Assembly (NCBI GenBank): GCA_018499985.2
Contig: JAHBAT020000004.1
Span: forward strand, 1 to 54,790
DNA from: Candidatus Moraniibacteriota bacterium
GTDB taxonomy: Bacteria; Patescibacteriota; Minisyncoccia; Moranbacterales; UBA1568
DNA length: 54,790 nt
Direction of reading: 5' to 3'
The position numbers and the translations under genes are program-made. Shown one piece after another: positions 24,291-32,301 of the stretch. The notes under the pieces are model-generated. The model did not search any database. It was not told where the DNA came from and was given only the letters and a program-made list of their open reading frames with translations. Position 1 is the first letter of the stretch. Each line of letters begins with the position of its first letter.

Positions 24291-24341
24291 CCCAGTGAAA
24301 TACGGCCAAGCCGTCAATGACCTAGGTCATATTTCACAGGG
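24291..24341 (-). promoter_or_regulatory. Three-way-junction structure between tmRNA 3' end and infC
   Basis: Minus strand: CCCTGTGAAATA...TATTTCACTGGG enclosing TGACCTAGGTCA and ACGGCTTGGCCGT. Confidence 0.65.
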
Positions 24342-24741
24342 TGGAGTTGATGGGAATTGCACCCATGTCCAGTTCATGTTTTTTCAAAATATTCTACAAG
24401 CGTAGTCAGGCTTTTTTATACAAATAAAAGATAGAAAGCAGACAAAATTCTTTTATGAGGAAGTCTTTGGCAATACAGCTTAGAAGAATCAAAGAAAACG
24501 AAAGTTCTTCGGCCGCCTCGATAGTATGGCACCAGAAAATCTCTATCGAGAATCAAGTTTCTGATGGCTCAGCAATTAAGCGTGAGCAAGAGCGAAAGAA
24601 GGGGCAAATGCGTTAGCAAATGTATTCTTTGTCTTTGAGATGAAGTTTGCAATTATCATCGTGAGAACAAGATTTACGACCATATTCTCAGGGTCGGCTT
24701 GCCTATTTTGAAAGTACACGCTGTCGAGTCTAAACAACCCC
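24342..24741 (-). ncRNA. ssrA: tmRNA
   Basis: 7-bp acceptor GGGGTTG/CAACTCC, T-arm GGACATGGGTGCAATTCCCATC, 5' TTTAGACTCGACAGCG; tag frame GCA AAC TTC...GCT CTT GCT CAC GCT TAA (24576-24650); adjacent to smpB. Confidence 0.93.
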
Positions 24742-28211: not shown

Positions 28212-28781
28212 ATGCCACATACTACTTTTTATCTTGTACGTCACGGACAGTCAGAGTCGAATGCTCTTGGTCTTATGAGTTCATATCCAGAGGTGCCTGG
28301 TCGTACCGTAAGGCATCTGACTGAGCAGGGTATCCATGAGGTAAAGGAAACAGCAGAGAAGCTACGAGAAGAGGGTATCGATGCGATCATTGCTTCGCCG
28401 CTGACCCGTACAGTAGAGACAGCTACACTTATCAGTGAGGCTACAGGTGTACCAGTTCTTCAAGATATTCGTTTGAGGGAAACTGATTTTGGAATGTATA
28501 ATGCTGGTCCGGTAGCGAAGTTTTTTAAGGTCTACACGGAGCCAGAGATGCGCATCATGACTGATGGCAGTGATGGTGTAGAGAGTTTTGAAAGTATGCG
28601 CGCACGAGTAGAAAGTATTCTCCATGATGTCAAAAAAGAATTTGCTGGTAAAAAGGTGGTACTTGTATCGCATGCGGATACGTTGGAGCAAATCCATGGG
28701 GTACTCACCAAAGAGAGTGTAGAGGTCAGTGTTATGGGTTGGTCACCAAAGACAGGATCAGTGCTTAAGATAGACTGTTAG
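28212..28781 (+). CDS. Histidine phosphatase / phosphoglycerate mutase family protein
   Basis: 'FYLVRHGQSESNALG', 'ASPLTRTVETATLI', 'LVSHADTLEQIHGVL'. Confidence 0.92.
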   Translation: MPHTTFYLVRHGQSESNALGLMSSYPEVPGRTVRHLTEQGIHEVKETAEKLREEGIDAIIASPLTRTVETATLISEATGVPVLQDIRLRETDFGMYNAGPVAKFFKVYTEPEMRIMTDGSDGVESFESMRARVESILHDVKKEFAGKKVVLVSHADTLEQIHGVLTKESVEVSVMGWSPKTGSVLKIDC

Positions 28782-28829
28782 TGAAGAATAGGAGGAGTTG
28801 ATTTTCTTATAGAATATTGCTAGGATGGG

Positions 28830-29060
28830 GCTACAAAGGCATTGAGGGAGTTATCACTCCTGAGTCCGTCCACAGATATATTTGTGGCTAAGACAGGCCT
28901 CAGAAAGAAATTCGAAAGAAGAGTAGAATCTGGCGCGAACTTGGCGTAACAAAGTAAAAATGAAGGTCTTCTGATTTTCAGGAGATAAATTAAGGTGGTA
29001 CCACCCGAAGAATATTTTTTAGGGTCCTTAACACGTTTTTTGTGTTAGGGATTTTTTGTT
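28830..29060 (+). promoter_or_regulatory. T-box leader (tRNA-sensing attenuator), probably Ile-specific
   Basis: T-box AAGGTGGTACCACC (28992-29006); antiterminator TTAAGG (28990-28995)/CCTTAA (29026-29031) competing with 10-bp terminator TCCTTAACAC/GTGTTAGGGA (29025-29034/29042-29051)+T6; hairpin GGAGT-TATC-ACTCC (28847-28860). Confidence 0.85.
29025..29060 (+). terminator. T-box regulated intrinsic terminator
   Basis: tccttaacac-gtttttt-gtgttaggga-tttttt. Confidence 0.88.
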
Positions 29061-29075
29061 TTTATTTATACAGAC

Positions 29076-29387
29076 ATGACTGAGAAATCTTTTTTTGAAA
29101 AACCTATTCCTCTGAGTCGAGGACATGAAGTACGTAAGCAAAAAGCGCTTGAAGAGGGTGATTGGTATCAAGCTGACAAAGAAGAGGTGTTGCAACTACT
29201 ACTGGAAATGAAAATGAGCGTAGGATTTGATACTGAACTGGAAGCAAGGGTGGTAAAGTTTATTTCAGATTTGAGTGAAGCAAAAGCGGTTTATCAGGGT
29301 TGGGGTCATGAGAGAGAGGTAAAGGAATGTGGTGATTTTATACAACAATTACAAGAGGCACTTGAGATTTTTAGTCAAAAGAAATAA
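29076..29387 (+). CDS. Hypothetical 103-aa protein under the T-box
   Basis: ORF between T-box terminator and ileS. Confidence 0.65.
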   Translation: MTEKSFFEKPIPLSRGHEVRKQKALEEGDWYQADKEEVLQLLLEMKMSVGFDTELEARVVKFISDLSEAKAVYQGWGHEREVKECGDFIQQLQEALEIFSQKK

Positions 29388-29391
29388 CACT

Positions 29392-32301
29392 ATGAAAAAA
29401 GTAGATGCACAAATGAATTTCCCTGAGCTTGAGAAGCAAGTACTCGAGCATTGGAAAGAACAGCAGATTTTTGAGAAGTCGGTAAATAAAGATGCTCCCA
29501 ATGGAGACTTCGTGTTTTATGATGGTCCGCCTTTTGCCACGGGACTTCCGCATTATGGGCATTTGCTTCAGAGTATTGTAAAGGATATTTTCCCTCGCTA
29601 TAAGACCATGACAGGGCACAGAGTAGAGCGTCGTTGGGGTTGGGACTGCCATGGACTACCTATCGAAAACTTGGTAGAGAAGGAGCTTGGTTTTAAAAAT
29701 AAGAAAGATATTGAAGAGTACGGTATTGAGAAATTTAATGAGCTTTGTCGGAGCAAGGTGCTTCAATACGCTTCTGATTGGAAAGTCTACGTAGAGCGCT
29801 TGGGGCGGTTTGTGGATATGGAGCATTCGTACTTCACGATGTCTCCGGAATACATGGAAAGTGTTTGGTGGGTATGGAAAAGTCTGTGGGAGAAGGGCTT
29901 AGTTTATGAGAGTTATCGCACTATGCATATCTGTCCGCGTTGCGAGACGACTCTTTCGCAGGCCGAAGTCAGTGAAGGTTATAAGGATGTCAAAGACTTA
30001 GCGGTGACGGCGAAGTTTGAACTTGTAGACTCTATTAGAATGAATGATTCTAAAGAATCAACTTCTAACGGGGTGAGTGAACCAAAAACATATATGCTGG
30101 CCTGGACCACTACTCCTTGGACCCTACCAGGCAATGTAGCTTTGGCAGTGGGGAAGGATATTGAGTATGTAAAAATCAGCTTCGAGGAATCTCTTTACAT
30201 CGTAGCGAAAGATCTTGTAGAAAAAGTTTTTATCGGGAAAGAGTATGAACTAAAAGAAGAAATAAAAGGAGAAGACTTGATTGGTAAATCATATATCCCG
30301 CCATTTCGAGACTATTTTGAACAGACAGATTTAGAGAACAGAGAAAACGGTTGGAAGGTGTATCATGCTGATTTTATTACTACTGATATGGGTACCGGGA
30401 TTGCGCATGAGGCCCCGGCTTTTGGTGAGGATGATATGCTCTTGGGTAAGGAGCATAACTTGCCTTGGGTGCAGCATGTAGCTATGGATGGGACTATCAA
30501 GCCAGAGGTCAAAGAGTTTGCCTCGATGCAGGTGAAGCCACTGGATAATCCTCAGGCTTTTGATATTGAGATTATCAAAGCGCTCGCAGGCAAGGGACTG
30601 CTTTTTGCGAAAGAAAAGTACGAGCATAGCTATCCGCACTGTTGGCGCTGTGATACGCCGCTTCTCAACTACGCTACAGGAAGCTGGTTTGTGGCAGTCG
30701 AAAAAATAAAAGAAGAAATGCTCGAGAATGCCAAGGAAATCAATTGGTCACCAGAGCATGTAAAAGCAGGGCGCTTTGGAAAGTGGCTCGAGGGTGCACG
30801 CGATTGGTCAGTGAGTCGACAGCGTTTCTGGGCAAGCTGTATTCCGCTTTGGGAGTGTGCTTGTGGTGAGCGAGAGGTGATTGGTTCAGTCAAAGAGCTA
30901 GAAGCTAAGTGTGGAGAAAAAGTAGAGGATCTACACAAACACACTATTGATAAATTGACATGGAGCTGTGGTAAGTGTGGCGGTGAGATGAAGCGTATCC
31001 CCGATGTATTGGATACTTGGTTTGATAGTGGTTCTATGCCATACGCCATGAATGGCTATACAGGTGAAGGAGAGATAACTCAGTTCCCGGCTGATTTTAT
31101 CGCAGAAATGGTAGAGCAAACTCGGACCTGGTTTTACTATCAGCATGTGCTCGGGGTCGCTCTTTATGATCAGCCAGTTTTCAAAAATGCTGTAGCTACA
31201 GGTGTCATCTTGGCAGAAGATGGACGTAAGATGAGTAAGAAGCTTCAGAATTATCCTGATCCGATGCACATCTTCGATACTTATGGTGCGGACGCTCTTC
31301 GTCTCTATATCACTACCTCACCAGTGGTGCAGGCTGAGAATCTAAACTTCAGCGAGAAGGATTTGCAGACGATGGTACGTAATACTTTTCGTATGCTTTG
31401 GAATTCATATTCGTTTTTCACCACCTATGCCAGTATCGATAAGTGGTCACCACATTCAGAGGCTAAGGCAAGTGAGAATATCTTGGACAGATGGCTACTC
31501 TCAGAGCTTCAGGTATTGATAGAAAAAATGACTGAGGAGCTTGAGAATTATAAGCCGGCCCAAGCAGCACGTCTCATTGCTCCATTTGTAGATGATCTAT
31601 CGAACTGGTATATTCGCCGCAGCCGCAAGCGCTTCTGGAAAAATGAAAATGATGACGATAAAGAAGCTGCTTATCAGACGCTTCATACAGTACTGGTAGA
31701 GCTTGCTAAGCTAATGGCGCCATTTACGCCATTTATCGCCGAAGAAATGTATCGTAATTTAACTGATGAAGAGTCAGTCCATTTAGCAGGGTGGCCAGTA
31801 AGCACGTCTGTTGATGTTCAGGTGAGTAATCAAATGGACACTGTCCGTACACTAGTTACTCTCGGTTTACAATTACGATCTGATGTAAAAATAAAAGTAC
31901 GTCAGCCACTCCAGAGTGTTTCTGTGAAATTTGATTTGGAAGCAGAATTTCAAGAAATTCTAAAGGATGAACTAAATATAAAAGAAGTATTTATTAATCA
32001 AAATCAACAAGAATTTTTAATTTTTGATTCAGAAATTACCCCAGAACTCAAACTTGAAGGAGAAATGCGTGAAATTATTCGCGCTATCCAGGAAGGTCGC
32101 AAGAAGGCGGGGTTTAATGTGGAAGATAGGATTATTCTCGGTTACTCAGGTAAAGAAGAAGTATTTGGGGTTCATCAGGATGAAATAGCTCATGAAGTAC
32201 TAGCTACAGAAGTGAAGGCAGGGGAGCTTGAGAATACTGAATACAATAGTACGGTAGATATTGAGGGAGGCGCTCTTACTTTTTGGCTCAAGCGAGTCTA
32301 G
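29392..32301 (+). CDS. ileS: Isoleucyl-tRNA synthetase
   Basis: 'YDGPPFATGLPHYGHLLQSIVKDIFPRYKTMTGHRVERRWGWDCHGLPIE', 'DGRKMSKKLQNYPDP'. Confidence 0.97.
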   Translation: MKKVDAQMNFPELEKQVLEHWKEQQIFEKSVNKDAPNGDFVFYDGPPFATGLPHYGHLLQSIVKDIFPRYKTMTGHRVERRWGWDCHGLPIENLVEKELGFKNKKDIEEYGIEKFNELCRSKVLQYASDWKVYVERLGRFVDMEHSYFTMSPEYMESVWWVWKSLWEKGLVYESYRTMHICPRCETTLSQAEVSEGYKDVKDLAVTAKFELVDSIRMNDSKESTSNGVSEPKTYMLAWTTTPWTLPGNVALAVGKDIEYVKISFEESLYIVAKDLVEKVFIGKEYELKEEIKGEDLIGKSYIPPFRDYFEQTDLENRENGWKVYHADFITTDMGTGIAHEAPAFGEDDMLLGKEHNLPWVQHVAMDGTIKPEVKEFASMQVKPLDNPQAFDIEIIKALAGKGLLFAKEKYEHSYPHCWRCDTPLLNYATGSWFVAVEKIKEEMLENAKEINWSPEHVKAGRFGKWLEGARDWSVSRQRFWASCIPLWECACGEREVIGSVKELEAKCGEKVEDLHKHTIDKLTWSCGKCGGEMKRIPDVLDTWFDSGSMPYAMNGYTGEGEITQFPADFIAEMVEQTRTWFYYQHVLGVALYDQPVFKNAVATGVILAEDGRKMSKKLQNYPDPMHIFDTYGADALRLYITTSPVVQAENLNFSEKDLQTMVRNTFRMLWNSYSFFTTYASIDKWSPHSEAKASENILDRWLLSELQVLIEKMTEELENYKPAQAARLIAPFVDDLSNWYIRRSRKRFWKNENDDDKEAAYQTLHTVLVELAKLMAPFTPFIAEEMYRNLTDEESVHLAGWPVSTSVDVQVSNQMDTVRTLVTLGLQLRSDVKIKVRQPLQSVSVKFDLEAEFQEILKDELNIKEVFINQNQQEFLIFDSEITPELKLEGEMREIIRAIQEGRKKAGFNVEDRIILGYSGKEEVFGVHQDEIAHEVLATEVKAGELENTEYNSTVDIEGGALTFWLKRV

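Follow-up and report, generated by a model that had tools for sequence, protein, structure and literature searches.

The window, a stretch of 54,790 nt from a genome of 892 kb that is 98.6% complete, carries on its plus strand a gene for isoleucine--tRNA ligase (ileS), preceded by a small orphan ORF and by the leader described here; the gene upstream of the leader ends at 28781, with its stop codon ~55 nt 5' of Stem I. The closest named relatives of the encoded IleRS, among the matches listed, are mostly from Patescibacteria (Moraniibacteriota, 56% identity; ADurb.Bin212, 55%; Kaiserbacteria, 54%), and by these best hits, without a tree, the host is very probably a member of the Patescibacteria of the Parcubacteria type. 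The orphan ORF matches nothing in Pfam or NCBIfam, and 36 related genomes yielded no relative of it; at another locus (leader L016) a 169-aa ORF, HD-domain-like by eye, occupies its slot. A default Rfam search of the whole window at the gathering cut-offs returned a tmRNA gene only (24339 to 24741, minus strand; RF00023, 108.6 bits). The features of the locus and the predicted elements of its leader are as follows:

28795 to 28823 (approximate, to a few bases), plus strand: weak sigma-70-like promoter TTGATT-17-TAGGAT, 8 of 12 bases
28837 to 28900, plus strand: Stem I domain, from the sequence, the alignment with relatives and the covariance model
28837 to 28840 and 28897 to 28900, plus strand: possible basal helix of Stem I, AGGC/GCCU, from the alignment
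28843 to 28845 and 28861 to 28863, plus strand: kink-turn-like bases, UGA and UGA, from sequence and alignment
28847 to 28860, plus strand: ultrashort Stem I hairpin GGAG-UUAUCA-CUCC, 4 bp with a 6-nt apical loop, from sequence and covariation
28853 to 28855, plus strand: specifier AUC (ATC in the DNA), predicted to pair with the tRNA-Ile anticodon GAU; the conserved purine A28856 comes next
28870 to 28887, plus strand: extra hairpin CCACA-GAUAUAUU-UGUGG, between kink-turn-like bases and basal helix
28901 to 28932, plus strand: Stem II, lower helix CAGA/UCUG and upper helix UUC-GAAA-GAA, from the RF00230 match, the alignment and the covariance model
28905 to 28910 and 28921 to 28928, plus strand: S-turn strands of Stem II, AAGAAA and GAGUAGAA
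28934 to 28955, plus strand: Stem IIA/B pseudoknot, CGC (28934-28936) with GCG (28944-28946) and ACUU (28939-28942) with AAGU (28952-28955)
28966 to 28986, plus strand: Stem III hairpin GUCUUCUGA-UUU-UCAGGAGAU, -10.0 kcal/mol, 1 of 200 shuffles as good
28990 to 29031, plus strand: antiterminator, UUAAGG/CCUUAA (28990-28995 with 29026-29031) and ACCC/GGGU (29003-29006 with 29022-29025)
28996 to 29002, plus strand: antiterminator bulge UGGUACC
29021 to 29057, plus strand: intrinsic terminator, arms TCCTTAACAC (29025-29034) and GTGTTAGGGA (29042-29051), then T6 (29052-29057)
29076 to 29387, plus strand: orphan ORF of 103 aa, between terminator and ileS
29392 to 32301, plus strand: ileS, isoleucine--tRNA ligase, profile match to TIGR00392 at 914.8 bits

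The earlier note on this DNA, made from the letters alone, had described a T-box sequence, two antiterminator arms, a terminator with its T6 tract, and the hairpin GGAGT-TATC-ACTCC at 28847 to 28860. All of these motifs were recovered base for base, with the T-box sequence AAGGTGGTACCACC (also AAGGUGGUACCACC; the antiterminator given as AAGGUGGUACCACG) at 28992 to 29005. These parts stand, but the element extends further than they do, as Stem II with its S-turn, the IIA/B pseudoknot, Stem III, and a hairpin inserted into Stem I are also present. In an alignment with 12 relatives, the S-turn strands were resolved as AAGAAA and AGUAGAA. The kink-turn-like bases, of the UGA/GGA type kept in the relatives' alignment, read UGA/UGA in the window, a likeness in sequence alone. 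Most relatives lack the insertion into Stem I, which spans ~30 nt in the window and renders the basal helix and the kink-turn geometry less certain here. Comparable insertions are seen in leaders L014, L065, L253, L260, and L289 (the last from the same genus), and the first four have basal helices of different, complementary sequences.

By every comparative test available the leader is a T-box, an identification made from sequence, and the sole criterion that it fails is the score threshold of Rfam RF00230. That model matches 28876 to 29032 over its positions 1 to 219 with 38.7 bits (E 3.2e-7), whereas its curated gathering cut-off is 93 bits. The shortfall presumably reflects the missing distal part of Stem I; the cut-off itself is a database threshold and not a biological feature. 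In control genomes, RF00230 matched in five, two of them above the cut-off. A custom covariance model, built from eight relatives with the window excluded, recovered the leader (28835 to 29029; 63.3 bits, E 2e-13) as its only match in the 54.8 kb. Two further matches, to SmY (E 0.035) and L10-leader (E 0.43), were set aside as chance. The alignment of the eight relatives, which is unbiased as to structure, has changes on both sides in 19 of its 31 pairs, and 94% of its cells are paired, as opposed to 81% in shuffles (0 of 500 as good) and no more than 50% with the structure shifted along it. With 90 model-aligned leaders, all 31 pairs have both-side changes and 95% of the cells are paired, although this alignment is fitted to the structure. 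The covariance model omits the pseudoknot, which was tested separately by comparing the IIA loop with the downstream segment: at least 4 complementary bases are found in 40 of 112 leaders, whereas after swapping of partners the mean is 11.9 and the highest count 22. The short Stem I hairpin is not improbable on its own (z about -1.7 relative to shuffles); its significance comes from its conservation and covariation in relatives (both-side changes in 4 of 4 pairs and 100% pairing in the eight-relative alignment), together with the match between specifier and gene. The antiterminator helices are likewise kept in relatives. The ultrashort Stem I inferred in the earlier note, here read as a 4-bp helix with a 6-nt loop, is borne out by covarying pairs, and neither of the comparative outcomes that would have refuted that note, namely the lack of any T-box covariance score and the lack of conservation of the AUC loop or antiterminator, was obtained.

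The reading of AUC as an isoleucine specifier gains its support from the genes that follow such leaders. For this comparison, custom-model matches were collected from Patescibacteria genomes, and the downstream genes, assigned from NCBIfam matches or their similarity to the window's IleRS, were found to encode IleRS, ValRS, non-discriminating AspRS, AspRS, ThrRS, TyrRS, LysRS, TrpRS, AlaRS, SerRS, and GlyRS. A strict caller requiring stem and kink-turn (49 of 78) missed leaders and picked wrong hairpins, and was replaced by two looser callers with permutation controls. The first, a blind caller, works on the best hairpin close to the start of the leader, from which it takes the triplet that precedes a purine and the 3' arm. 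This triplet codes for the amino acid of the downstream gene in 80 of 143 leaders (mean 29.5 and maximum 48 in 5000 label permutations), including 44 of 57 outside IleRS, with GUC before 23 of 27 Val genes, UGG before 2 of 2 Trp, ACC before 2 of 3 Thr, and GCC before AlaRS. The second, an offset scan over all candidate hairpins, finds 89 of 140 matching at the offset expected (against 41.6 on average and at most 55 in permutations). At the neighboring offset -5, one base 5', there are 70 (permutation mean 34.2), an excess that fits leaders having one more base after the specifier; elsewhere the scan is at or near chance level. The misses of these callers are in part their own fault, AUC being visible in many of the failed loops. 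Hence, the loop triplet before IleRS, ValRS, AspRS, ThrRS, TrpRS, AlaRS, and GlyRS genes is the cognate codon far above chance. Two short T-boxes with AUC loops (L004 and L253) are followed by a membrane-protein-like ORF and no recognized synthetase.

The other predicted contact with tRNA, suggested earlier from the complementarity of UGGU to an ACCA end, agrees with the tRNA complement of the genome. One tRNA-Ile gene was found among the loci examined; its anticodon is GAU, its discriminator is A, and its CCA is not encoded. This tRNA fits both contact points of the leader, the specifier AUC and the UGGU bulge opposite A73-CCA. In the relatives, the variable base of UGGN is U for Ile, Val, Tyr, Lys, and Ala; C or U for Asp/Asn; C for Ser; and A for 3 of 3 Thr leaders and for the one Gly leader, with exceptions in 2 of 62 readable Ile leaders and 1 of 15 readable Val leaders. 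The tRNA discriminators of the source genome are A for Ile, Val, Lys, and Ala, G for Asp, and U for Thr and Gly. Most tRNA genes of this genome lack an encoded 3' CCA, and a few (for example Asp, Lys(CUU), and Val(CAC)) have it.

On the output side, the hairpin at 29021 to 29055 lies 20 nt 5' of the first ATG and has a T6 tract after it; it folds at -16.5 kcal/mol (z = -6.2), which none of 200 shuffles equaled. Its 5' arm holds the entire 3' arm of the antiterminator, positions 29022 to 29031 being common to both, and the two folds are mutually exclusive, as had been proposed from the sequence. A terminator-like hairpin with a U tract follows 132 of 156 Patescibacteria leaders, as against 27% in composition shuffles, a background that is high because the DNA is AT-rich; in 96 of these leaders the terminator arm overlaps the antiterminator, and 24 of the 156 have no terminator by the criteria used. 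The coupling of a short T-box to a transcription terminator, also part of the earlier proposal, holds up in these comparisons. These observations bear on an alternative in which the leader acts translationally, as in actinobacterial ileS, its hairpin serving as a sequestrator that hides the ribosome-binding site. The aptamer is indeed closely similar to that of a translational actinobacterial type, the ultrashort ileS leader of an acidimicrobial genome (L123, GGCGTTGACGAGGCCATCACCTCTGAGCC), which scores 72.4 bits with the Patescibacteria model, and short Stem I T-boxes are mostly translational in the literature (PMC10482949, PMC7583486). However, the arms of the window's hairpin contain no Shine-Dalgarno sequence, and ileS starts ~335 nt beyond the terminator. 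The acidimicrobial leader, in contrast, has no terminator-like hairpin and carries a Shine-Dalgarno-like AGGAG before the start codon, as expected of the translational form. The contrast with Actinobacteria rests on this one locus and the literature only, yet we consider a translational output improbable for the window.

A further alternative, to which we give about as little credence, is that the leader is a decayed T-box that keeps its motifs but has lost the response to tRNA, leaving a terminator that attenuates constantly. The window's score of 63 bits, below that of most relatives of the same order (up to 155), and the insertion into Stem I could be taken in its favor. Against it stand an intact specifier, S-turn, pseudoknot, UGGU, antiterminator, and terminator; the helices are divergent but compensated, and similar insertions recur elsewhere with compensated basal helices.

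The shortness of Stem I is supported by the sequence upstream of it. A scan requiring 9 of 12 bases did not list the promoter-like TTGATT-17-TAGGAT, and its 3' end lies ~8 nt 5' of the position at which the model begins the leader. Promoters at the same position were found in 83 of 155 relatives, as opposed to 12% after shuffling and 11 of 150 when a control region was scanned, and mostly end 4 to 8 or ~14 nt before the leader start. Such a promoter should place the transcription start only a few bases 5' of Stem I. Of 155 leaders, with a median Stem I domain of 29 nt, 132 have one of at most 36 nt; this count of the short class is an upper estimate, since the model may also land on the basal part of a longer Stem I, as it does in outgroup Clostridia. 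That the leader is a canonical long Stem I T-box, its distal part overlooked upstream or within the inserted hairpin, is scarcely credible, for while canonical forms exist in the phylum (13 of 384 genomes above the Rfam cut-off; L271 and L273), the window's specifier loop is closed by a 4-bp helix that leaves no room for a distal elbow-binding arm, the upstream stop codon and promoter-like site leave little sequence before the leader, and the relatives are similarly short. Five ileS-type T-boxes from the same family or genus (L008, L018, L029, L281, and L289) bear a short additional upper arm on the specifier loop's 5' side, and the length of Stem I varies within the genus.

We consider it very likely that the leader mediates tRNA-Ile-dependent transcription antitermination by a short-Stem-I aptamer, the dependence on tRNA being inferred without experiment. 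This reading is built on sequence and comparison: the parts and their conservation, covariation, the specifier-gene match, the fit of the tRNA at both contacts, and mutual exclusion of the two folds. The binding of tRNA, discrimination of its charging state, and termination in vivo are inferences only. As proposed, the T-box would sense the charging of tRNA-Ile and attenuate an operon of the 103-aa ORF and ileS. RNA polymerase would start just 5' of Stem I, and the nascent leader would display AUC in the 6-nt loop of its 4-bp stem. Stem I and the S-turn of Stem II would then grip the anticodon arm of tRNA-Ile(GAU) in the manner of Class III, without an elbow-binding distal Stem I. With uncharged tRNA, pairing of the ACCA end with the UGGU bulge would stabilize the antiterminator (28990 to 29031) and allow ileS to be transcribed; with charged tRNA, the antiterminator would not be stabilized, the stronger terminator (29021 to 29055) would form, and transcription would stop at the U tract.

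Four T-box classes are recognized, of which I and II have a long Stem I and are generally transcriptional, whereas the short III and the intermediate IV are mostly translational (PMC10482949). Transcriptional T-boxes are held generally to need a long, elbow-binding Stem I, so that the tRNA is caught before the polymerase passes the terminator (PMC7583486, PMC10482949), and short Stem I forms to act mostly on translation (PMC10482949, PMC7583486). With Class III, as in ileS of Nocardia farcinica and Mycobacterium tuberculosis, the window shares a short Stem I without elbow motif and a specifier in the apical loop (PMC10482949, PMC7583486), a penta- or hexanucleotide in that class (PMC10482949), as well as the Stem II S-turn, IIA/B pseudoknot, and ileS target, and its kink-turn-like bases recall the kink-turn of that class. 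It differs in having an extra hairpin within Stem I and in its output, an intrinsic terminator in place of a hairpin hiding the Shine-Dalgarno box as in the translational actinobacterial ileS T-box (PMC1262725); moreover, in relatives the same form serves Val, Asp, Asn, Thr, Trp, Ala, and Gly. With Class I, as in Bacillus subtilis tyrS, it shares Stem II, Stem III, and an antiterminator exclusive with an intrinsic terminator, but lacks the long Stem I and its distal elbow-binding motif, and has its specifier in an apical rather than an internal loop. Those relatives of the same genus that have a short upper arm are similar to Class IV (Actinomyces odontolyticus ileS, intermediate Stem I); this class is mostly translational (PMC10482949), whereas L008, L018, L281, and L289 have a terminator-like hairpin and U tract. 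In its predicted structure, then, the window is a Class III aptamer joined to a Class I output, a combination absent from the published lists of T-box classes. Exceptions to the rule linking class and output may already be known, as the papers say "mostly" and "generally", and TBDB mentions class I sequences with a truncated Stem I (PMC7778990).

The suggestion that T-box control would be unusual in a CPR-like genome did not hold up. The custom model has a match in 100 of 132 genomes of the order and in 127 of 384 genomes sampled across the phylum (~a third), several same-genus genomes, G003, G004, and G009 among them, being without one. RF00230 matches 117 of the 384 at E 1e-5 but only 13 above its cut-off, and in close relatives it matches 43 of 57, none above the cut-off. 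To our knowledge, gene regulation in Patescibacteria is almost unknown. We found no description of a T-box in Patescibacteria in the open literature; subscription papers and preprints were outside the scope and a prior description is not excluded. Open papers on riboswitches and the Candidate Phyla Radiation seemingly describe no T-boxes. With these elements, the Patescibacteria would gain a widespread response to amino acid starvation at tRNA synthetase genes, mostly hidden by the Rfam cut-off. The window's type is one of the smallest forms of the T-box aptamer, and with so many natural examples of short Stem I T-boxes joined to terminators, the claimed requirement for a long Stem I becomes testable. 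Only tentatively do we entertain a broader possibility, namely that Patescibacteria possess a general-purpose short-Stem-I T-box that exerts kinetic transcriptional control for many amino acids without contacting the tRNA elbow. If so, the link between short Stem I and translation would be peculiar to Actinobacteria, and the short version could be the older or simpler one, with other T-boxes having evolved from it or toward it.

Long-Stem-I T-boxes also occur in the phylum (L271 and L273), as does a long one of seemingly translational output (L274), and both architectures and both outputs coexist there. The last, at ~1400 to 1800 before an argS-like gene of another Patescibacteria genome, contains the Arg triplet CGC and lacks a U tract, and its CCUAAGU/ACUUAGG pairing could mask the AGGAG before the ATG, the mirror image of the window's combination. 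At another locus (L273/L245, from one genome), a canonical long T-box, with UAC (Tyr) as its specifier and with a terminator, precedes a gene that, by eye only, has the look of a succinylglutamate desuccinylase and is possibly a non-synthetase target.
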